From Fibrobacter sp. (lineage in GTDB: Bacteria; Fibrobacterota; Fibrobacteria; Fibrobacterales; Fibrobacteraceae), in NCBI GenBank assembly GCA_024399015.1, contig JAKSIC010000001.1:372001-436000 (forward strand): a stretch of DNA of 64,000 nucleotides. The letters are read 5' to 3'. The notes beneath the pieces are model-generated. The model did not search any database. It was not told where the DNA came from and saw only the letters and a program-made list of their open reading frames with translations. Each line of letters begins with the position of its first letter. Within the stretch, counting starts at the first letter, position 1. Below, one piece after another: positions 20,853 to 53,948 of the stretch. The position numbers and the translations under genes are program-made.

Positions 20853-22220
20853 ATGATTAATCAGAAATCAATCGTTTTTGGACTTCTAGTCAGCACCTCC
20901 GCACTCTTTGCCGGGGGCACCTGGACTCTGGAAGACTGCCTGAAGCAGGCAAAGGCCAAAAGCCTTTCCATGGAAATTGCAAGCCTCCGCGAACAGGCTG
21001 CCGATATTTCCATCCAGCAGACCAAGGCAAACCGCTATCCGTCTGTTAACGCAAGCATCAACAACACACTTTCCGACAATCCGTTCAACGATGGAGCCAA
21101 GGACCACTACAGTCTGAGCTTCGGTCTGAACGGTTCCTGGACCATTTGGGATGGTGGCGTTAACTCTTTGAGCACCGAAGCCAGCGAATTGAATAAGCAG
21201 GCAGTTCAGCAATCCACCAAGCAGGCAGAACGAAACGTTCAGGAGAACGTCCTTAACGCCTATATGAACCTGCTTGCCGCCCAGGAAAAGCTGATTACCG
21301 CCAACGCCTCCGTGGAACTTTCCCAGGCAGAATTTGAAAACTACACCAAGCTTTTCGAAGCAGGTTCCATCACCAAGAAGGACTTGACCCAATCTCAGTC
21401 CAGCGTAATGCAAAAGCAGGTGGCCAAGCTTAGCGCGGAACTCAGTGTGAACTCCGCCAAAACCACCCTTCGCCAATTAATGGAATTGCCTGCCAACGAA
21501 GAAATTGAAATTACCGACCCCGATGCAGACTTGACCTCCCCCGATTCCCTGGAAGCCATTCCTCCCTACGACCAACTGCTTGCCGACATCCGCAAGGTTA
21601 ATCCGGGTCTGAAGTCCGATAGCATCGCCATCCAGGTCGCCCAGAAGAACACAAAGGTTGCCAGCAAGAACAGCGCCATCACCGTGTCCCTGGGAGCAAA
21701 CGCAGGTTCCGGCATCCGCGCATGGCATACCGAAGGTACTGCAACCAACACAGGTTCCATAAGCACCGGCATCACCACCGATACCGACCAGAAAAATGAA
21801 AACCGTTTTGTAAGACAGCTCAAGAGCAGCTATCAGCATTCCATTTCTCTCGGCATCAACATCCCGTTGGTAGACCGAGGCGCCACCACCAACAAGGTTC
21901 TCCAGGCTCAAATCAACGAAGCCGAATCACAGATGGCCTTGATAGAAACATCAAAGTCCCTGGAAAACAACGTGGAAAAACTTTACCTGAATGCCGTAAG
22001 TGCCGATATGCAGTGGAAGGCTGCTGCGCTTCAAGTTGAAGCAGAAACCGAGGCTATGGCAGTTGCTGAAGAACAACGTAACGCAGGCGCCTTGACCTAC
22101 ACGGATTATCTCTCCCAGAAGAACAGCCTGGAGAACGCAAAGGTCACCTTGACCAACGCCAAGTACACAAGCCTCCTGGCACGAAAGCTTATCGACCTGT
22201 ACTTGGGCAAGATGGATTAA
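20853..22220 (+). CDS. TolC family outer membrane efflux protein
   Basis: A 455-residue outer membrane factor with a signal peptide (MINQKSIVFGLLVSTSALFAGG). The two OEP repeats are visible: each has a long amphipathic helix pair (NKQAVQQSTKQAERNVQENVLNAYMNLL, then AQINEAESQMALIETSKSLENNVEKLYLNAV) and a strand pair (SLSFGLNGSWTIWDGG, HSISLGINIPLVDRG). The typical DYLSQKNSLENAKVTL segment is near the C-terminus. It should form the trimeric exit duct of a type I or RND/MacB efflux system. Neither adaptor nor pump is adjacent, and the gene is bounded by terminators on both sides, so it likely serves several pumps. Confidence 0.92.
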   Translation: MINQKSIVFGLLVSTSALFAGGTWTLEDCLKQAKAKSLSMEIASLREQAADISIQQTKANRYPSVNASINNTLSDNPFNDGAKDHYSLSFGLNGSWTIWDGGVNSLSTEASELNKQAVQQSTKQAERNVQENVLNAYMNLLAAQEKLITANASVELSQAEFENYTKLFEAGSITKKDLTQSQSSVMQKQVAKLSAELSVNSAKTTLRQLMELPANEEIEITDPDADLTSPDSLEAIPPYDQLLADIRKVNPGLKSDSIAIQVAQKNTKVASKNSAITVSLGANAGSGIRAWHTEGTATNTGSISTGITTDTDQKNENRFVRQLKSSYQHSISLGINIPLVDRGATTNKVLQAQINEAESQMALIETSKSLENNVEKLYLNAVSADMQWKAAALQVEAETEAMAVAEEQRNAGALTYTDYLSQKNSLENAKVTLTNAKYTSLLARKLIDLYLGKMD

Positions 22221-22302: not shown

Positions 22303-25300
22303 TTAGGAAACAGACAGTCTAGAACGGCCACCTTCCTTGGACTTGTAAAGTCGCTTATCGGCAAACTCGTAAAGTTCATTGAAGGAGTTAAGTTCATTAT
22401 TCGCGATGACGGCACCCATGGAGAGGCTGGTCGCATTGGGATTCATGGTGAGCACCATATTGACTTTGTCGAATATCTGCTGCGCACGCTGATACATGAA
22501 TTCGTCGGAGCATTCCTTCGAGAAGAAGAGGGCGGCGGCAAACTCATCACCGCCCATACGGCCGGCAATATCATCACGACGTAGCGTTGAGTTCAAAGTC
22601 TGCCCCACAAGCGCCAGGAATTCATCACCGGCAACGTGACCGTAGGTATCGTTGTATTCCTTGAAATGGTCCACATCGATCATCAGGAGCATGACCTTAG
22701 TCTTACCTTCAAGCAGCTTGAACTCCGTATCGTTCTTGAAAGCCGGGCGGGTAAGCACGCCCGTTAGGGAATCCCTACGGAACGCATTTTCAATTTCACT
22801 TTCGCGGCGCTTAGCCTTATTACGTTCCACGTCAGCCATGACTCGCAGGCTATACGTTGTAGACGCGTCTGTCACGACAATTTCAGAACGACCGGCACGG
22901 GCTGCCGAGTCATAGAACTGGCGACCAATGCAGAACACATAGATAATGGTTCCGTCCTTACGGACAAGACGATGTTCAAAGAACGCCTGGGGACGCTTTG
23001 CAGTTTCTTCCATCACAAGACCCATGTATTCCGTACGGTCTTCTTCAGGAATCAACTGCATGTGGTTCATGTGATCGTTCATTACTTCATCTTCAGAATA
23101 ACCCGTCAGTTTTTCAAAGGCCTTGTCTACACTTACAATGTTGAACTGTTCGTCTACAACGTAGCGACAGAAATTCAAGTTATGGACAGTGTGCGTTCTA
23201 GAAGGCTCGATACCTTGGTTCAATTCGTCACGAATCAAAGACTGCGCTTCCGCAGAAACCTTCTTGGTGGATTCAGCCTTCTTCGGGAGAGTCTCCAGCA
23301 GTTGAATAAACTCGGAGACAATGCCCGGATCGAACTGGGAGCCCGCACAGCGCTTCAGCTCATTGACAGCCACATCCTGGGGCAGCGCAGGGCGATAGGC
23401 ACGATCATTGACCATGGCATCGTAAGCATCCACCACGGCGATAACGCGAGAAAGCAAGGGGATGGATTCACGACTCAAGCCATCTGGATAGCCGGCACCA
23501 TCCCAACGTTCGTGATGATGCAAAATCATTTCTGCGATGCCGCAAAGTTCGGTAGAACTATTGGCAATTTGGTAACCCTTGGTGGCGTGTGAACGAAGCA
23601 CGTCCCATTCCTCGGAAGTAAGCTTGCCCGGCTTATTCAAAATTTCCAGAGGAACGCCAATTTTGCCGATATCATGGAGCAAGCAAAGCAGGGAGAGGTC
23701 ACTTTGCTGAACATCGCTGAGGCCAATGCGTTTTCCAAGGGCTGCACCCATAGCCTGGGTTCGACGGACGTGTTCCTCGGTATCCGGGTCGCATTCCTGC
23801 AGTGCCTGCACCAAGGAATTCAAAATCACGGAATGGCTGGAGCCCTTGTCCAAAAGTTTCTTCTGCTTCAGGCCCTTGATAGCCTCGGCAATGCCATCTG
23901 CAGTATCCATCTTTTCAGGCACATAACTTGAGGAAAACTGGATGGACAAGTCAAATTCCGCTTTGACCTTTTCTATGCGTTCAATGGCTTCCTTTTCATC
24001 ATCAGCCATCTGAATAACAATCAGGTTCGCATCCTGGCCACGGACAAAGTAGGAATCCTTCGGATAATACTTCCTGAGCAAGTCTGACAGCGCCTTGAGC
24101 TTCTGGTCACCATAATGACGTCCCTTCGTAGAATTCAAAAAAGAAAGCCCCATGATATCACACGCAGTGACAACAAGAGATTCCGTTTTTCTGCCCTTGG
24201 TTTCGTTCATGAAATAGCAGAAGTCATCCCAGTTATGGAAACCAGTCAGCGGGTCTGTTGCAAGAGTTGCATTGGAGAAAGTAAACAAACGACCAAGAAC
24301 CCGCTTTCGCTTATTCTTCAAGGTTCTATACTCGCAACGTAAGGGTTTATTTTCGCCATTGACGTCAACGTAACATTGCAACACACAAGATTCCACCTTG
24401 GGGTCGATCTCGATGTTACACAACTTCTTGAAATCTTCGATCTTCATCAATTCAGTCATTTTGACATCAGGCCACTGGCGGTCGGCCATGTCATTATGCA
24501 AAATCAACTGGCCTACATAATCAAACAACACCAAGCCCTGGTCGATGTTCTCGAACACGCTCATCTTGAACAATTTCATCATACCCTTGGTGGAATACTG
24601 GAAACAAGCCCAATAGAAAACATACGCGCCAAGGCTATAGCCAAGAATGGAGTAGTCCAGGAAGTTGTAAACAGAAAGACCCGGCAAGAATAGGAATACG
24701 CCATTGATTGCAACGATAGCGACAACGCCAAACACGGCATACAAATACTGCCTCTTGTATTCCAGAGGAACCCTGACCAGCTTATAAATCAGGAAATAAA
24801 CACAGGTCGCCACCATAGCATAGCAGAACGCCAAATGTGCATAGAACCAGAAATGCATATCATAGCTGAACTTGGCAAACTCCGTATCGCGAGGCACAAA
24901 GCTAATGGCCACATCCCAGAACGGATTGATGACAAAGAATACAATATCAAGGGCAATGAAGGCGTGAGCAAGTTTAAAGTGGCCCGCACCAACCATGGAT
25001 TGTTTCAACTTACAAAAGTCACAAACAAATATCACAAGACTGATCAGCATGATGTCTATGCACACAAAGTAGATGCTGGACATGCAGGAGAACACGAAAT
25101 AGTTGTCGCTGAGGCAGCTGACTAGATAGCTCAGGTCCACCAGGGCGCAGCCGACGCAGGTGGAACCCAAGGCACGACCCTGGACGCCACCCTTTTTAAA
25201 GGACATAGATGCTAAAATGACATCGATGGCGGCAATCACCAAAGATGCAATTATATACTCAACCAAGAAAAGAGACAAAGGGGCCTCCAAAACAAAATCA

Positions 25301-25305
25301 CACAC
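22303..25305 (-). CDS. Membrane cyclic-di-GMP signalling protein: degenerate GGDEF, HD-GYP, PAS and active GGDEF
   Basis: A 1000-residue inner-membrane protein. Residues 1-230 contain about seven hydrophobic helices, like the 7TM sensor of histidine kinases. Residues about 345-480 form a GGDEF fold whose active site is lost. About 500-690 is an HD-GYP phosphodiesterase domain with HDIGKIGVP near residue 543 and HHERWDGAGYPDGL near 595, both complete. About 715-825 is a PAS domain (FEKLTGYSEDEVMNDH). The last 165 residues are a GGDEF domain with an intact AGRMGGDEF near residue 917. It can thus in principle both hydrolyse and synthesise cyclic di-GMP, with PAS and membrane sensor setting the balance. 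This domain order is uncommon. The MATE gene lies 50 bases upstream on the same strand. Confidence 0.9.
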   Translation of the reverse strand: MCDFVLEAPLSLFLVEYIIASLVIAAIDVILASMSFKKGGVQGRALGSTCVGCALVDLSYLVSCLSDNYFVFSCMSSIYFVCIDIMLISLVIFVCDFCKLKQSMVGAGHFKLAHAFIALDIVFFVINPFWDVAISFVPRDTEFAKFSYDMHFWFYAHLAFCYAMVATCVYFLIYKLVRVPLEYKRQYLYAVFGVVAIVAINGVFLFLPGLSVYNFLDYSILGYSLGAYVFYWACFQYSTKGMMKLFKMSVFENIDQGLVLFDYVGQLILHNDMADRQWPDVKMTELMKIEDFKKLCNIEIDPKVESCVLQCYVDVNGENKPLRCEYRTLKNKRKRVLGRLFTFSNATLATDPLTGFHNWDDFCYFMNETKGRKTESLVVTACDIMGLSFLNSTKGRHYGDQKLKALSDLLRKYYPKDSYFVRGQDANLIVIQMADDEKEAIERIEKVKAEFDLSIQFSSSYVPEKMDTADGIAEAIKGLKQKKLLDKGSSHSVILNSLVQALQECDPDTEEHVRRTQAMGAALGKRIGLSDVQQSDLSLLCLLHDIGKIGVPLEILNKPGKLTSEEWDVLRSHATKGYQIANSSTELCGIAEMILHHHERWDGAGYPDGLSRESIPLLSRVIAVVDAYDAMVNDRAYRPALPQDVAVNELKRCAGSQFDPGIVSEFIQLLETLPKKAESTKKVSAEAQSLIRDELNQGIEPSRTHTVHNLNFCRYVVDEQFNIVSVDKAFEKLTGYSEDEVMNDHMNHMQLIPEEDRTEYMGLVMEETAKRPQAFFEHRLVRKDGTIIYVFCIGRQFYDSAARAGRSEIVVTDASTTYSLRVMADVERNKAKRRESEIENAFRRDSLTGVLTRPAFKNDTEFKLLEGKTKVMLLMIDVDHFKEYNDTYGHVAGDEFLALVGQTLNSTLRRDDIAGRMGGDEFAAALFFSKECSDEFMYQRAQQIFDKVNMVLTMNPNATSLSMGAVIANNELNSFNELYEFADKRLYKSKEGGRSRLSVS

Positions 25306-25355
25306 TCAATTGTAAGAGAAATATAAACTTTTTTAGGGTGGGAAGTAGCCCTGGG

Positions 25356-26702
25356 CTATTTTATATGTGATTTAGGCGACTTTATGGAAAAATAGACAAC
25401 CACACAAATAACCACCGACAGGAAAGAACCGGTCAAGGTGGCGATACCCATGGGGAAAAGGGTATCCGGATACCAAACGGAGGCAAAATAGGCCCCCGGC
25501 ACACGCAAAGTGACAATGGAAATGGCGTTGTGGACGAAGGATATGATGGATCGTCCGCAGGCGCAGAAGTATCCGCTGAAGCAGAAATGAATGCCGGCCA
25601 CCATGCAATCAAAGACGTAGGCGTGAAGGTACTGGGTGCCGAAAACGATAACCTTGGGGTCTTCCGTGAACAGGGCCAGCACCGGTTCGGAAATGAACTG
25701 GAAGAGTATTCCACAGAAAAGGCCGAAGCCGGCGGCAATACCCATACCGCAGTAGAGGGTTTTGCGGGCGCGGTCGAAGCTTCCGGCGCCGATGTTCTGT
25801 GCGCTGACGGCGGAAACTGTCGAGAGCATGGCGGACGGGACGAGGAAAAGGAAGCAGATGATCTTTTCCACCACACCGACGGCGGCCGCAATTTCCAGGC
25901 CACGGGAGTTTGCGATTAAGGTAATGAACAGGAAGGAAACCTGGATGAAGCCGTCCTGGGCGGCGACCGGAATGCCAATTTTTGCAATGGCGGCCAGGAG
26001 GGCTTTGTGAGGTTTGAAGTCCTTGCGGGAAAGAGTAACCCCGAAATTCACGCGGCGGGAGTACTTGATCGCCCAAAGGGACAGGCCCACGCTGAAGGTC
26101 TGTGCCACCACCGTTGCAACAGCGGCACCCGAGGCGCCCATCTGCAGCCCCCCGATGAAGAGGTAATCCAACGCAATATTCAAGACGCAGGCTACCGTAA
26201 TAAAGTACATAGGGCTCTTGGTATCGCCTAACCCGCGGAAAGCTGCGGCAATTACGTTGTATGCAGTAATGAAAGGAATCCCAAGGAAACAGATAATCAA
26301 GTAGTTTACGGTACCTTCAACGGCCTCGGTGGGCGTCGAAAGCAAGGAAACAATCTGGGGGCAGAATGCAAGCAGCACCGCCATCAGCAAAACAGCCAAA
26401 ACGCAGAACACAAGAGTAGTGTTTCCAAGAATTCTGGAAATGCTGCGGTTGCGTTTGGCGCCCACCGCCTGGCTGATCAAAACCGTGGAGCCCATAGTAA
26501 GGCCCACCAGGATCACCGTCACAAAATGCATCACCTGGCTGCCAACAGCAACGGCGGTAATGCCAGCAGCATCCGTAAACTGGCCTACGATAAAAAGGTC
26601 TGCCATGCCGTAAAGAGTCTGAAGGAAATTGGAAATCAAGAACGGGATGGAAAAGATCCCGATGTTCTTGAGAATACTTCCTTCATATAAGTTGCGCGGC
26701 AT
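25356..26702 (-). CDS. MATE family efflux transporter
   Basis: A 448-residue, 12-helix inner-membrane protein of the MATE class (NorM/DinF). Characteristic parts are LPFLISNFLQTLYGMADLFIVGQF-like first helices, GLTMGSTVLISQAVGAKR after helix 2 and the mirrored second half with SAMLSTVSAVSAQNIGAG. MATE carriers extrude cationic drugs and metabolites in exchange for protons or sodium. It follows no regulator; the HD-GYP gene is 50 bases downstream and may be read from the same promoter. The 284-base stretch upstream belongs to hsp20 control. Confidence 0.93.
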   Translation of the reverse strand: MPRNLYEGSILKNIGIFSIPFLISNFLQTLYGMADLFIVGQFTDAAGITAVAVGSQVMHFVTVILVGLTMGSTVLISQAVGAKRNRSISRILGNTTLVFCVLAVLLMAVLLAFCPQIVSLLSTPTEAVEGTVNYLIICFLGIPFITAYNVIAAAFRGLGDTKSPMYFITVACVLNIALDYLFIGGLQMGASGAAVATVVAQTFSVGLSLWAIKYSRRVNFGVTLSRKDFKPHKALLAAIAKIGIPVAAQDGFIQVSFLFITLIANSRGLEIAAAVGVVEKIICFLFLVPSAMLSTVSAVSAQNIGAGSFDRARKTLYCGMGIAAGFGLFCGILFQFISEPVLALFTEDPKVIVFGTQYLHAYVFDCMVAGIHFCFSGYFCACGRSIISFVHNAISIVTLRVPGAYFASVWYPDTLFPMGIATLTGSFLSVVICVVVYFSIKSPKSHIK

Positions 26703-26770
26703 ACCATAAATTTAGAATAAAACAACGGGCTTTGGATATTTTCAAACAATCGCATAATTAAACGCGGCTT

Positions 26771-26809
26771 GTTTCGCAGGTGAAACACCTCGTGTTTCTG
26801 AATGAACAC
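26771..26809. promoter_or_regulatory. Two dyads upstream of the sigma-54 promoter (candidate activator sites)
   Basis: GTTTC-N6-GAAAC at 26771-26786 and GTGTTT-N6-GAACAC (one mismatch) at 26792-26809 have centres 22 bases apart, two helical turns, and sit about 85-115 bases before the -24 element. Within the first lies the perfect AGGTG-AAA-CACCT palindrome. This arrangement is what an enhancer-binding protein needs; the protein itself is unknown. Confidence 0.5.
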
Positions 26810-26892
26810 CCCCGACATCAGGACAATCATAATTTTATAAAAACCCCTAAAAATTCATCATTTTTACCATTTTTCAACGTCATTTCGAAAAG

Positions 26893-26909
26893 TTGGCACG
26901 GGGTTTGCA
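26893..26909 (+). promoter_or_regulatory. Sigma-54 promoter of hsp20
   Basis: TTGGCACGGGGTTTGCA matches the -24/-12 consensus TGGCACR-N4-TTGCW at every fixed base, with the GG and GC doublets 12 bases apart. Transcription should start near 26920, 67 bases before the hsp20 ATG, which has an AGAGG ribosome binding site. Confidence 0.85.
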
Positions 26910-26986
26910 ATAGGTAGGGCGTAAAGCAAAAAACAATGGGCAACGGCGAATGCCAAGCCCGCAACTCAAACAAGAGGTAAAATATT

Positions 26987-27400
26987 ATGATTAACGCAAA
27001 CGTCATCCCCACCGCATTCTACAGCCTTCAGAACATCATCGACAGCCTGAACAGCGTAAGCAACGCTGCAACAGAAAAGGCCGACAACGCTGAATGCGTT
27101 AAGCGCGAATACACCTACTGCCCCAAGGCCGACTACTATGAAATCGAAAACGGTTTCATGTTGGAAGTGGAACTTCCGGGCGTCAAGAAAGAAGCCCTCG
27201 ATGTGCAAGTGGAAAAGAACATCCTTACCGTCAAGGCTTCCCGCGAACGTAAGGATAACAAGGTCAACTACGAACGTAGCTTCCGCCTTGCCGAAGACAT
27301 CGACTTGGAAAACATCCAGGTTGCCTTGGAAAATGGCATCCTCGCCTTCACCTTGACCAAGAAACAGCAGGCAGGTGCCCGTAAGTTGAATATCGCATAG
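26987..27400 (+). CDS. Small heat shock protein, Hsp20/alpha-crystallin family
   Basis: A 137-residue chaperone. Residues about 45-137 are the alpha-crystallin domain: YCPKADYYEIENGFMLEVELPGVKKEALDVQVEKNILTVKASR, then YERSFRLAEDIDLENIQVALENGILAFTLTKK with the conserved A-x-L-x-N-G-I/V-L motif. The C-terminal IxI tail is short (KLNIA). These proteins form oligomers that bind unfolding proteins without ATP. The most striking feature is its promoter, a consensus sigma-54 site with upstream dyads, unlike the heat-shock sigma or HrcA control usual for hsp20. A small hairpin (AAGGTT/AACCTT, 27411-27427) follows. Confidence 0.95.
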   Translation: MINANVIPTAFYSLQNIIDSLNSVSNAATEKADNAECVKREYTYCPKADYYEIENGFMLEVELPGVKKEALDVQVEKNILTVKASRERKDNKVNYERSFRLAEDIDLENIQVALENGILAFTLTKKQQAGARKLNIA

Positions 27401-27472
27401 TCCCCCAACAAAGGTTAGCGCAACCTTAAAAGCGCAGATTTACTCCTTTCATCGTACTCCTTAAATACATCA

Positions 27473-27511
27473 GAGGTTCCGTAGGCGACTACGGAGCCTC
27501 TTCTTGTTTTT
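27473..27511 (+). terminator. Terminator after hsp20
   Basis: GAGGTTCCGTAG pairs with CTACGGAGCCTC (one mismatch) around GCGA, followed by TTCTTGTTTTT. Confidence 0.85.
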
Positions 27512-48674: not shown

Positions 48675-51600
48675 ATGAGGAAGTTTCTTCTCGCACTGTC
48701 TGCATTGCTCCCTGTGGCACCTTTTGCGGCCAACGCCACCATGGTTGGTGACGGCACCCAGGAAAGCCCATGGCAAATCGAAGATTACGAAGACCTAAAG
48801 GCCATCGGTAAAGGGCCCTATCTTTATAAAAATCATTACGTGCTGACAAAGGACATTGACGCCTCGGCCTCCGAACACGAAATGTGCAACGAAGACGGAT
48901 GTAACGGTTTCATTTCTATTGGTAAATCAAAAGACGCCGAAGACAGTACAGTATTCCACGGAAGCTTTGATGGTCAAAACCACACCATCAGCAATATGAC
49001 CATTTGGCTTCCTTGCGAAAGTGCCGTAGGATTTATTTCCAAACTTGCAGGCTCTCTTTCCAACATAAAATTTGACAAGATCAATATTACCGGCCGAGTT
49101 TCCGACTCCTATCACGTGGGTCTTGTTGGAAGAGCTTGGGGCCCAATCACTAATGTCCATGTGACCAACGGCTTTGTTCAAGGTGAAAAAAATATCGGCG
49201 GCATCGTCGGCAATATGGAAGCTCCGTACGGTTACAAGTCCAAAGGTCTTTTAGAGGACGTATCCTTCCAAGGTACAGTGAAGGGCGTTTTTTATGTAGG
49301 CGGCATCGTTGGCTATGCCGAGAATACAATTACACATGCCGACGCCAACGTAAACATTCTTGTTTATAGCGTTTCAAGGTACGACTCAGAACACATCGGA
49401 GGCATCGCAGGTTATTCAAAAGCTACTATCGGATACAGCAGTGCTAAAGGCAGAATTTCTCCCGACGCAGCCGAATCTAGCGATGCAAGAAGCATTGGCG
49501 GCCTTGTAGGAACAAATCGCGGATATGTATTTGCAAGCTACGCGCAAATGAACATTACCGGACCTTCTCAAAACCCCACATCAAAATATGCGGCAGAGGG
49601 GTTCAATTATTATATAGGCGGACTTGTCGGTGACAATCAAGGTCCCATTTCCTCCTCTTATTTTGCAGGAAACGTTGTTGGAGAAAGTTGTGTAGGCGGT
49701 ATCGCTGGAAGAAATAAAAGCCGCATTCAACATTCTTATTCTATTGGAACCGTCATAGGAACCGACGGCGTTGCAGGTGTTGCAGCTTGTAGCAATGACG
49801 ATGCAACCATCAGCCACACCTATACAGCAACCATCATCAATGGCGAAGAAGACGTAAACAACATTACAAACAACACCAAGAGCACCGTAGAACATTCCTA
49901 TTGGAATACCGACTATTCCAGCATTGAAGGCAACAACATTGGTAAGGGTCTTTCTTCTACAGAAATGAAATCCTTTGCAAATTTCGATACTTGGAAAGAC
50001 CAACACGACTCCGATTTTGTCTATTGCGAAGGCGAAAGCTCCCCTAACTACTACGAATCATACTACCAATGCGACAGTCTCGACTATTATTATGCTGAAC
50101 CTGAAGAAGGCTATACTTGTTCACTTATTCACTTTTGCCGTCAGTTCAAATATATATGGGATATTGATGAAGGCAAGACATTCCCTTATATCCGCTTATT
50201 ACCCCAAACAACGGTTCTGCCCATCGCCAAGCCCACTGCAGCACCCGCATGGCAACCGACTCCTATTATCGCTACCCTGGAAAATACAGGCGCAACACTG
50301 GTTGGAAAATGGACAGACTGGTCTCAGCTGAATACGGCAGGAGACTCCATTTACTACAACTACCAGGTTGGAGTTCTCAACGGCAAGGATACCATTTGGG
50401 GAACCACCAGTTATATGGCCGTTCCTAACAAAATTGAAATCAGCAGTTTGAACGACCTGAAAAAAATCGGCAACGAAACCAGCCATCCGTTAATGGCAAC
50501 CTACGAACTTATGGCCGATATCGATGGTAACAACACCACGTTTAAGCCCATTAGCGACAGTGTTACCGCATTTACAGGAAAGTTTAACGGCAACAATCAC
50601 ACCATCAGCAATCTCATCATCAATGAGCCCATTAGAGATTTCACAGGTCTATTCGGTTATCTTTATAACGCCACTATTGAAAATCTTATTCTGAAAAATA
50701 TCCAGGCAAACGGCTCCTGGTGCGTAGGCGCCTTGGCTGGTGAAGTAGATAACTCCATTGTACGTCGAGTCGTTTCCTACAACGGCAACGTCACTGGAAC
50801 TGAATTTGTTGGTGGTTTGGTTGGTGCTTCAAAGAACGCAAAATTCGACATGATTGGCGCAACCGGTTATGTCACGGGTAAAACAACCGTGGGAGGCGTG
50901 TTTGGAGCCTTCGCATCCATAGCCAACAATGTTTACTCCGTCAGCATGGTTAAGGGTATTGAAACCGTAGGCGGTATCTCTGGCCACGGTCAAGAATTTG
51001 ATGTGGAAAGTTCTTTCAACAAGGTTTATTCAGCAAGTATCATCAAGGCAAGATACTCCGACGAATTCGTCAATAACGGGAGCCTCATGGGATCAGCCGA
51101 TGTTTATGATGGTTACTTCGACAACACTCTTTACACTCAATCAGGCGGTAGCAAAGCAGGTCATTCTACAGAAGAATTGCAGCAGCAAGCAACGTTCAAA
51201 AACTTCGACTTTGATTCAGTATGGACTATCCAGGAAGGAAAAACCTACCCCTACTTCCAGGGAATGGACCCCGTTCTTCCAGGAACTCTTATCAATGACA
51301 GTACCGCATTCGCTCTTGCCGGAAACGGAACTGCAGACAATCCATACCTCATCGAAAACTACGACGACTTGAAATATATCGGCACCCATGAATACGCCAC
51401 CAATCTCTATTACAAGCTTACAGACAACATTAACGCACGTAATTCACAAAAGGAAAACTGCGACGCAAATGGTGAAAACTGCAAGGGATTTACACCCATC
51501 AAGGAATTCAGCGGTGTATTGCTCGGTAACAGCAAAACAATTTACAACTTGACCATCAACCATCCGGAAGAAGATTCCGTTGGTTTGTTCAAGTCCTTAA

Positions 51601-53948
51601 CGGCAACAGCAAAGATTTCCGCACTCCGTTTGGATACACTGAAGATTATCGGCAAGAACTACGTCGGTGGCCTCGCCGGTGCTGATGAAGGTGCAAGCAT
51701 TGATAGCCTTGACGTAAGAGGCTCCATCTCCGCCCAGAACTACGCAGGCTCTGCAATCGGCGAAAAAGTTAGCGGTACCATCACTATCGCTAATACAACC
51801 GGTTCCATTACAGCCAAGAATTTTGCAGGCGGTATCGTAGGGAACTTGAAAAATTCTGAAATCAAGAATTCTTCCTCCACCACATCTGTTGTGGGCGAAA
51901 GCAATTTGGGTGGCCTAGTTGGTAACGCTATCAACGCCAAAATCACTTACACATTGGCCGCAGGAAATGTGGAAGGAACAACAAATATTGGCGGCCTCGC
52001 AGGAAACGGCAGCAACACCATTTGGACAAATTCCTACTGCGACAGTACCACATGGCACATGCACCAAACCGCGGGCGGTGAAATGAGAAACTCTGCCCAA
52101 ATGGTAAATTCCTCGACTTTCGAAAACTGGGATTTCGATAAGGCATGGTATGCATGGGATGGGTTAAGCTATCCAAGACCTACCTGGAGTAAAATCAAAA
52201 TAAATGTCTTTGGCGACGAAGTTACATTGATGAATGGCTCCGGAACTGACGCCGATCCGTTCCTTATCACTAATCAAGATGATCTTCTTTCTATCGGTGC
52301 AAGCATCTACACCATGAATTCCGTCTACAAACTGACAAGCGATATTAATTTATCTAACGGTTATAGCTACAATTCTATTGGTCGGAGAAAAAACATTATC
52401 TGGGGCAGCCCTGAACTATTCGGACCTAATACAGGAGAAACAACTGTATTTTCAGGAAAACTCCACGGAGCAGGACATTCCGTTTCTGGTTTCCGTTGCA
52501 GTGACAATTTCAGTTTAGTTGATACCCTTTCGGCAACTGGTGTTATTGACAGCTTGAACATTACAGATTTCCTTTGCTACAGCGACGACGCTATAAGCTC
52601 CTTTGTTGGCATCAATAAAGGCACCATCAATAATGTCAATGTATCTGCAGAAATTCATGCTTTATACGCAGCAGGTATCACCGGTAAAAATTACGGGCAC
52701 ATCTCCAACAGCTCCTTCTCTGGTTCCGTTTCCAGTGATTCCATCGCAGGCGGCATCACTACAGAAAACTGGGGATTTATTGAAAACAGTTCTGTTGACG
52801 CAGAAGTAAACGCTGATTACTATGCCGGCGGTCTCGTCGCAATCGATCACAAGGGTACTTCAAATTCCAAATTTAGTGGTACAGTGGCTAGCGGAAAATA
52901 TGGTGGCGGCGCATTTGCCATCGTTGACAAGGCCACCATCAACAACGTTTCTGCAAATGCTTCCGTGTTCTGCAGAGGAAATAATTCTAATGATTTAACT
53001 CTTGGCGGTTTCGTCGGCGAAAACAATGGTTACATCTTCAATTCCTATGCTGATGTAAAAATCAATGACGGAAGCGGATTCGCCAGCGTCAATAACGGAA
53101 CAATCAGCAGCTGCCGCTCCTCCGTGGACATGGAAATCCGTTATACCCCACAACCTCTCGGCGGTTTCGTTGGTACCAATCTTGAAAAGGGCGTCATCAC
53201 CGATGTCTATGCAACAGGTTCTTCCCTGGCACGAGCATACAATGTTGCAGAAACGAAAACTTTTGACGCATTGGTCGCTAAACAGCAAGGATCCATCAAG
53301 AACGCATACAGCACCTGGTACACAACCCGTAACCAAGGCGAAAACATCTGCAGTAACGTTCAATGGGAAAAGGCAGGCGAAAACGTCTACTACAGTTCCA
53401 GCGAATGCGCCTTGTCTAGCGACAACATGAATCTGAAAGCTTTGACAGGCGACCAAATGATTCACGCCGCAAGCTTCAACGGATTTGACTTCCAGAAAAT
53501 CTGGACAATCGAAGAGGGCGTTTCCTACCCAACCCTCCGATTCAATGCAGATACTACAGTTGTAAAGGAAGAACCGCAGGATACAACCATCACGATTCCC
53601 GAAGACCCCAAGGATACAACCGATAAGAAGGATTCCACACAGACTCCCGACGATTCCAAGAAAGAAGAATCCATTGGTAGCTCTCGTGCAACCGCAAACA
53701 CCGGGCTCAAGGCTATTTTGAACGGCAGCTTTGCAGAGTTCCAATTCACCGTTCCTAGAAGAGGTGAAGTCAAGTTCTCCCTGCTGAACATGCAGGGCAA
53801 CGTCGTGTACTCCGCAAACATGGGCGTCACGGCCGCAGGATCCCACATCAAGACCCTTGGACTCTCAGGCATCACTAACGGCCGTTATATCGGAATCTTG
53901 CAGTTGAACGGACAACCGGTCGATCGCACTATCCTCACAAAGAAATAG
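48675..53948 (+). CDS. Giant secreted GLUG-repeat protein with C-terminal sorting domain
   Basis: A 1757-residue secreted protein with signal MRKFLLALSALLPVAPFAANA after an AGGAGG site. At least four modules open with the phrase G(x)GTxxxPWQIxxYEDLKAIG (residues near 25, 595, 880 and 1195), each followed by strings of GLUG motifs such as VGGIVG, IGGLVG, AGGIVG with interleaved beta-strands; these build a beta-helix-like fold. Near the end lies a Pro/Asp/Thr/Lys linker (about 1630-1670: PQDTTITIPEDPKDTT) and an ~85-residue type IX-like sorting domain (VKFSLLNMQGNVVYSANMG...GRYIGILQLNGQPVDRTILTKK). GLUG repeats occur in adhesins and surface-sheet proteins; adhesion or carbohydrate interaction is likely. 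It is one of the longest genes here and uses more A/T-rich codons than the enzymes beside it. Confidence 0.85.
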   Translation: MRKFLLALSALLPVAPFAANATMVGDGTQESPWQIEDYEDLKAIGKGPYLYKNHYVLTKDIDASASEHEMCNEDGCNGFISIGKSKDAEDSTVFHGSFDGQNHTISNMTIWLPCESAVGFISKLAGSLSNIKFDKINITGRVSDSYHVGLVGRAWGPITNVHVTNGFVQGEKNIGGIVGNMEAPYGYKSKGLLEDVSFQGTVKGVFYVGGIVGYAENTITHADANVNILVYSVSRYDSEHIGGIAGYSKATIGYSSAKGRISPDAAESSDARSIGGLVGTNRGYVFASYAQMNITGPSQNPTSKYAAEGFNYYIGGLVGDNQGPISSSYFAGNVVGESCVGGIAGRNKSRIQHSYSIGTVIGTDGVAGVAACSNDDATISHTYTATIINGEEDVNNITNNTKSTVEHSYWNTDYSSIEGNNIGKGLSSTEMKSFANFDTWKDQHDSDFVYCEGESSPNYYESYYQCDSLDYYYAEPEEGYTCSLIHFCRQFKYIWDIDEGKTFPYIRLLPQTTVLPIAKPTAAPAWQPTPIIATLENTGATLVGKWTDWSQLNTAGDSIYYNYQVGVLNGKDTIWGTTSYMAVPNKIEISSLNDLKKIGNETSHPLMATYELMADIDGNNTTFKPISDSVTAFTGKFNGNNHTISNLIINEPIRDFTGLFGYLYNATIENLILKNIQANGSWCVGALAGEVDNSIVRRVVSYNGNVTGTEFVGGLVGASKNAKFDMIGATGYVTGKTTVGGVFGAFASIANNVYSVSMVKGIETVGGISGHGQEFDVESSFNKVYSASIIKARYSDEFVNNGSLMGSADVYDGYFDNTLYTQSGGSKAGHSTEELQQQATFKNFDFDSVWTIQEGKTYPYFQGMDPVLPGTLINDSTAFALAGNGTADNPYLIENYDDLKYIGTHEYATNLYYKLTDNINARNSQKENCDANGENCKGFTPIKEFSGVLLGNSKTIYNLTINHPEEDSVGLFKSLTATAKISALRLDTLKIIGKNYVGGLAGADEGASIDSLDVRGSISAQNYAGSAIGEKVSGTITIANTTGSITAKNFAGGIVGNLKNSEIKNSSSTTSVVGESNLGGLVGNAINAKITYTLAAGNVEGTTNIGGLAGNGSNTIWTNSYCDSTTWHMHQTAGGEMRNSAQMVNSSTFENWDFDKAWYAWDGLSYPRPTWSKIKINVFGDEVTLMNGSGTDADPFLITNQDDLLSIGASIYTMNSVYKLTSDINLSNGYSYNSIGRRKNIIWGSPELFGPNTGETTVFSGKLHGAGHSVSGFRCSDNFSLVDTLSATGVIDSLNITDFLCYSDDAISSFVGINKGTINNVNVSAEIHALYAAGITGKNYGHISNSSFSGSVSSDSIAGGITTENWGFIENSSVDAEVNADYYAGGLVAIDHKGTSNSKFSGTVASGKYGGGAFAIVDKATINNVSANASVFCRGNNSNDLTLGGFVGENNGYIFNSYADVKINDGSGFASVNNGTISSCRSSVDMEIRYTPQPLGGFVGTNLEKGVITDVYATGSSLARAYNVAETKTFDALVAKQQGSIKNAYSTWYTTRNQGENICSNVQWEKAGENVYYSSSECALSSDNMNLKALTGDQMIHAASFNGFDFQKIWTIEEGVSYPTLRFNADTTVVKEEPQDTTITIPEDPKDTTDKKDSTQTPDDSKKEESIGSSRATANTGLKAILNGSFAEFQFTVPRRGEVKFSLLNMQGNVVYSANMGVTAAGSHIKTLGLSGITNGRYIGILQLNGQPVDRTILTKK

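Follow-up and report, generated by a model that had tools for sequence, protein, structure and literature searches.

What controls the transcription of a small heat-shock gene in Fibrobacter that is preceded by a sigma-54 promoter, and is that control peculiar to this gene? As described to date, heat-shock control in bacteria is exerted mostly by an alternative sigma factor (for example sigma-32) or by a repressor (for example HrcA). A preliminary description of the locus had contrasted hsp20 with chaperone genes under sigma-32, CIRCE or ROSE control, and had proposed that an enhancer-binding protein (EBP) couples it to a special signal. We have examined these proposals in the window, i.e., the whole 64,000-nucleotide stretch of DNA that was analysed, in the genome from which it comes, and in related genomes of the phylum.

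The hsp20 promoter region

The hsp20 gene (26987–27400, forward strand) encodes a small heat-shock protein of 137 amino acids (PF00011, E = 3e-14, 54.6 bits), the sole match to this profile in a genome-wide search. All the nearest hsp20 loci in a collection of named genomes are from Fibrobacter, and the relatives in named Fibrobacter MAGs are 60–81% identical. From a reading of the sequence, a TolC-type gene apparently ends just 5′ of hsp20 in relatives such as L051; in the window, a GGDEF/HD-type gene and a MATE-type transporter gene (20853–22220 and 22303–26702) separate the TolC-type gene from hsp20.

The sigma-54 core TGGCACG-GGGT-TTGCA (-24/-12) lies at 26894–26909 on the forward strand, as the element TGGCACGGGGTTTGCA. 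It has no mismatch to TGGCACGN4TTGCW, with the GG of the -24 part at 26895–26896 and the GC of the -12 part at 26907–26908 in correct phase, confirming the spacing reported initially, and no other exact match occurs in the window. Transcription is predicted to start at 26920, 12 bp 3′ of the -12 GC and at the position proposed before, giving a putative leader of 26920–26986 (forward strand) that contains a Shine-Dalgarno-like GAGG at 26974–26977. No sigma-70-like promoter was found in 26690–27010 by a simple scan. No Rfam family, thermometers included, matched within 26700–27500 at E ≤ 1, and a ROSE-type thermometer was not found in the leader. The sigma-54 core is present at 19 of 19 loci of the genus (this genome and 18 Fibrobacter relatives); the GG is intact throughout, and the -12 part carries at most one change, in a few loci.

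Two dyads, to which no strand is assigned, lie upstream. Dyad 1, TGTTTC-GCAGGT-GAAACA (26770–26787), is an exact inverted repeat and the proposed EBP site, or enhancer. Dyad 2, GTGTTTCTGAATGAACAC (26792–26809), is imperfect, with two mismatches to GTTTC-N5-GAAAC, and would be a weaker EBP site. The symmetry centres at 26778.5 and 26800.5 are 22 bp apart, about two helical turns, as first described, and the pair is located 85–124 bp 5′ of the sigma-54 element. EBP enhancers are typically tandem sites some 22 bp apart and about 100 bp upstream. Tandem dyads, some of them imperfect, occur at all 19 hsp20 loci with a spacing of 21.5–22.5 bp, the first beginning 89–178 bp upstream of the -24 element, and they persist while the flanking upstream DNA diverges. 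Dyad 1 is kept 5′ of hsp20 in the 18 relatives, mismatched in some, and an N5–N6 dyad with at most one mismatch is found at 18 of the 19 loci. Its core half-sites recur 5′ of dnaK and groES. A search for such dyads beside sigma-54 promoters, as had been suggested, finds them at dnaK and groES; by itself, the pattern occurs at 42 places genome-wide, and so does its control. We dropped it as a stand-alone genome-wide signature, and since it is no commoner than the control its case stands on position and conservation.

Sigma-54 sites and HrcA at chaperone genes

The genome has a single copy of rpoN (one PF04552 match, 168 bits, with the RpoN box ARRTVAKYRE in the open reading frame). The pattern TGGCACN5TTGCW occurs 21 times genome-wide, compared with once for a reversed-pattern control. 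There are 14 exact TGGCACGN4TTGCW sites, five of which directly precede hsp20, groES, clpB, htpG and dnaK, and a site with one mismatch precedes grpE. The genes were identified from their translations, and in the case of hsp20, groES, dnaK and clpB also by curated models; the results for htpG and grpE refer to this genome. In this genome the exact dyad of htpG is on the downstream side, 52 bp beyond the start of the promoter. In the genus, the dyad at dnaK is near the promoter, about 36 bp 5′ of the -24 element here. When the rpoH model was applied, two sigma-70-family proteins of the genome scored 126.5 and 105.2 bits against a cut-off of 323.1 bits.

Other genes behind sigma-54 sites are of the nitrogen type (glutamine synthetase, glutamate synthase, PII). 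There are three TTTAC-N7-GTAAA dyads at the sigma-54 promoter of dapF (L017) and two at that of gltB (L031), which suggests a separate EBP for nitrogen and amino-acid genes. A nitrogen EBP is disfavoured as the activator of the chaperone genes because gltB and dapF carry these dyads, and not the GTTTC dyad. The gene for a sigma-70-family factor of 270 amino acids (L024, G000:C23:168976) has an exact sigma-54 promoter as well, and the repeat upstream of it, TTAGTCACAAATAAATGACTA, is of another kind; a sigma cascade is possible. The sequence TAGCACGGAATTTGCA found shortly 5′ of a GAF-type EBP gene on contig C8 (G000:C8:7260; L277, L316) is possibly the sigma-54 promoter of that gene.

We extended the comparison to the family of this genome, f1, which we infer to be the Fibrobacteraceae since all the nearest named loci are Fibrobacter. 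Sigma-54 sites are present in f1 at hsp20 (19/19), groES (24/24), dnaK (16/16) and clpB (14/14). GTTTC-N5/6-GAAAC lies within 250 bp upstream of hsp20 in 18 of 19 cases, groES in 24 of 24, dnaK in 16 of 16 and clpB in 3 of 14, where dinucleotide shuffles lead one to expect about 0.6–0.8 loci per gene set; clpB of the genus Fibrobacter has a perfect sigma-54 core, mostly without a good dyad. A blind scan for spaced dyads, in gene sets that also took in four f10 loci (left out of the f1 counts), ranked GTTTC-N5-GAAAC top for dnaK, GTTTC-N6-GAAAC for hsp20 and the nested TGTTT-N7-AAACA for groES.

None of 26 f1 genomes had a match to HrcA (PF01628), compared with four of four genomes in f2, the sister family; for the phylum the count was 21 of 61. 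The CIRCE operator, TTAGCACTC-N9-GAGTGCTAA, was not detected at f1 groES within three mismatches; f2 retains both HrcA and CIRCE, and lacks both dyad and sigma-54 site at groES and dnaK. CIRCE precedes groES in 12 of 17 genomes with HrcA and in 1 of 34 without it (Fisher p = 4e-7), and for the sigma-54 site the corresponding figures are 3 of 17 and 30 of 34 (Fisher p = 1e-6); neither p value is corrected for phylogeny, and the counts take no account of shared descent, the HrcA-negative genomes coming mostly from f1. Four HrcA-less genomes of family f7 (genera g14 and g15) likewise have a sigma-54 site at groES, and in one f7 genome, G010, dnaK and groES both carry sigma-54 sites with dyad-like elements. 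A sigma-54-like site is also frequent at hsp20 elsewhere in the phylum. In three further HrcA-less f7 genomes (G018, G036 and G040) the groES copy tested showed no CIRCE and no sigma-54 site, whereas G030 (f9) had CIRCE at groES with HrcA undetected; these exceptions possibly reflect incomplete assemblies or other control. The phylum shows CIRCE-only, mixed and sigma-54-only states, so that the replacement of a global regulator can be traced gene by gene.

The contrast originally drawn between hsp20 and chaperone genes under the classical regulators therefore does not hold: the same class of promoter is found at dnaK, grpE, groES, clpB and htpG, HrcA is missing, and neither CIRCE at f1 groES nor an Rfam thermometer was found. 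These comparisons suggest that the sigma-54 system is the family's general heat-shock switch, and not a special signal for hsp20; most of the Fibrobacteraceae heat-shock regulon appears to have moved to sigma-54.

A candidate activator

Strong EBPs (PF00158) number seven in this genome and two in the distant genome G010; three smaller f1 genomes have three each. Since dyad-like elements accompany the sigma-54 sites at dnaK and groES of G010, an activator that it shares with f1 is expected among its two EBPs, and only one of these (C37) has clade members in f1. The clade is represented exactly once in each of 15 sampled genomes, with a support of 0.999, in a tree built from the AAA+ and helix-turn-helix (HTH) regions; the tree is incomplete, lacking for example G012_C31, G058_C56 and G027_C32. 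Pairing of EBPs by best match of the whole protein was abandoned, the AAA+ core being too alike among paralogues.

The member of the clade in this genome is a candidate EBP of 485 amino acids encoded on contig C39 of G000 at about 51015–52472. Its AAA+ domain (PF00158, 237 bits) contains GESGSGKE (Walker A), GTLFLDE (Walker B) and KGAYTGS, a GAFTGA-like loop, and its HTH is of the Fis type (PF02954, 58 bits). The HTH core, ISRATLWRK in this protein, is near-invariant as ISR[SAT]T[LI]WRK in 12 aligned orthologues. The match to a receiver-like domain is marginal (PF00072, 33.7 against a cut-off of 30.2). At the phospho-acceptor position the residue is E in this genome and E, S, N or D across f1; f2 has S or A there, and f7 has D. 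The domain is missing in G010 and G003. Such variation speaks against a signal that all the orthologues would receive by simple phosphorylation.

In f2 the orthologue follows dnaJ in the order hrcA-grpE-dnaK-dnaJ-EBP in four of four genomes, with the cluster split over two contigs in G025. This is a direct physical link of the EBP to heat-shock genes. In f1 the gene lies behind genes for a histidine kinase with PAS and HATPase domains and for a single-domain response regulator that is intact, so that a two-component input to the EBP is possible there. The response regulator before the EBP is 124–128 amino acids long in L284 (G000:C39) and L289, and in L291 the kinase precedes the EBP. An adjacent EBP, for which a search in related genomes had been suggested, is found beside chaperone genes in f2 and, for this clade, not in f1. 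The EBP is present also where CIRCE governs groESL and the dnaK operon, so that the regulon cannot be predicted from the EBP gene alone.

We assign the C39 EBP to the GTTTC-N5/6-GAAAC dyad by elimination and linkage, and its binding there is predicted. Comparative genomics gives strong support to the earlier suggestion that an EBP controls hsp20. It also names a putative activator gene, and a motif for its binding, both open to direct testing.

Proposed mechanism, known systems and alternatives

We consider it probable, on comparative sequence data, that hsp20 of the window belongs to a sigma-54 heat-shock regulon that includes dnaK, grpE, groES/EL, clpB and htpG, driven by an EBP of the C39 type and successor to HrcA/CIRCE. 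This brings together the observed promoters and dyads at chaperone genes, their conservation, the absence of HrcA, and an EBP that is present in single copy and linked to dnaK-dnaJ in f2. RNA polymerase with sigma-54 would lie as a closed complex on the -24/-12 element, and a dedicated NtrC-family AAA+ activator would occupy the GTTTC-N5/6-GAAAC enhancers. Upon protein misfolding the activator would hydrolyse ATP and so remodel the closed complex. This system would have replaced HrcA/CIRCE in a lineage from which hrcA was lost.

The switching of the activator is the least certain part of the model. The dnaK-dnaJ-EBP order in f2 suggests chaperone feedback by DnaK/DnaJ. One may imagine, with more doubt than confidence, that the HrcA-less family conducts its cytoplasmic heat-shock response through sigma-54 and one dedicated EBP that is held inactive by free DnaK/DnaJ and released by misfolded protein. 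If such titration is true, the heat-shock switch is ATP-gated, and the gene order in f2 reflects the feedback.

The main heat-shock factor of Escherichia coli is sigma-32. In that species the small heat-shock gene ibpB, which resembles hsp20 of the window in having a sigma-54 promoter, is transcribed by sigma-54 besides sigma-32 according to work cited in PMC4370416; in contrast to E. coli, Fibrobacter has sigma-54 sites on nearly the whole chaperone set. The hrcA-grpE-dnaK operon of Chlamydia, also a heat-shock operon, has tandem sigma-66/sigma-54 promoters and an AtoC/NtrC-type activator (PMC7482065, PMC8762339), but Chlamydia keeps HrcA/CIRCE, whereas HrcA was not found in f1. In a study of RpoN in Geobacter, chaperone genes changed, with no RpoN element detected at them (PMC2725144). 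For Bacteroidota and Planctomycetota, sigma-54 promoters of chaperone genes have already been predicted: a recent survey describes enrichment of such predicted promoters at genes for GroEL, GroES, GrpE, DnaJ, DnaK, IbpA, Hsp90 and ATP-dependent proteases, and states that sigma-54 dependence applies to GrpE in B. thetaiotaomicron and F. psychrophilum and to GroES in B. thetaiotaomicron (Carrera-Reyna, Cruz-Flores, Merino 2025, PMC12316311). Its main text does not mention Fibrobacter, and we found in the survey neither an activator or enhancer for the chaperone cluster nor an exchange with HrcA.

A search of the mostly open-access literature found no paper that treats sigma-54 together with heat shock for Fibrobacter, and in the literature searched we found no prior report of a near-complete regulon, a regulator swap and a candidate activator in the Fibrobacteraceae. 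HrcA/CIRCE, still present in the sister family f2, has the same targets (groESL and the dnaK operon); control in f1, where HrcA is absent, would be by activation, not repression. If the model is correct, the Fibrobacteraceae run the same chaperone set through promoters that are silent without an ATPase. A usual textbook stress response would then be wired unusually in a gut bacterium, with activator-dependent promoters at hsp20 and nearly all the classic chaperone genes.

Other readings of these data must be weighed. The chaperone promoters could be genuine sigma-54 promoters at which another EBP occupies the dyads, for instance one of the C34 type, which has an N-terminal domain of its own, or of the C6 type, which is short and resembles PspF. 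Both are conserved too in the f1 genomes examined, and in f1 the EBPs of the favoured clade sit in a kinase–response regulator–EBP operon away from the chaperone genes. Yet both types are absent from G010, which has its sigma-54 sites and dyad-like elements at dnaK and groES with two EBPs only; moreover the HTH of the C34 type is more variable between genera, and the dnaK-dnaJ linkage is exclusive to the favoured clade. We therefore regard another EBP as unlikely. It is quite improbable that the dyads are sites of an unrelated repressor or architectural protein, and that the EBP activates from solution or through weak sites. The joint occurrence of dyad and sigma-54 site across genes and families, and their joint absence at f2 groES and dnaK, speak against this, as does a tandem layout that is generally that of EBP enhancers. 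The position of the htpG dyad downstream of its promoter and the scarcity of good dyads at clpB would fit the unrelated protein better. So would the similarity of the dyad to parS, TGTTTCACGTGAAACA, spacer excepted, but an N5–N6 spacer without CACGTG is a poor fit to parS.

The sigma-54 consensus is short, and the hsp20 promoter is known here from its sequence, so that the -24/-12 match might be coincidental and transcription carried out by a sigma-70-type holoenzyme. We find this scarcely credible for a site kept at every one of the 19 loci, of a pattern found 21 times against once for its control, shared in similar form by five more heat-shock genes, and with no sigma-70-like site in the region scanned. 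The C39-type EBP acting at sigma-54 promoters is thus the reading that we prefer.

Separately, four GTTTCACGTGAAAC sites were observed within about 5.3 kb on contig C24 (G000:C24:8139-13461, L314). They match the parS core of ParB, differ from the heat-shock dyad in their N4 spacer and CACGTG, and probably mark a partition region.
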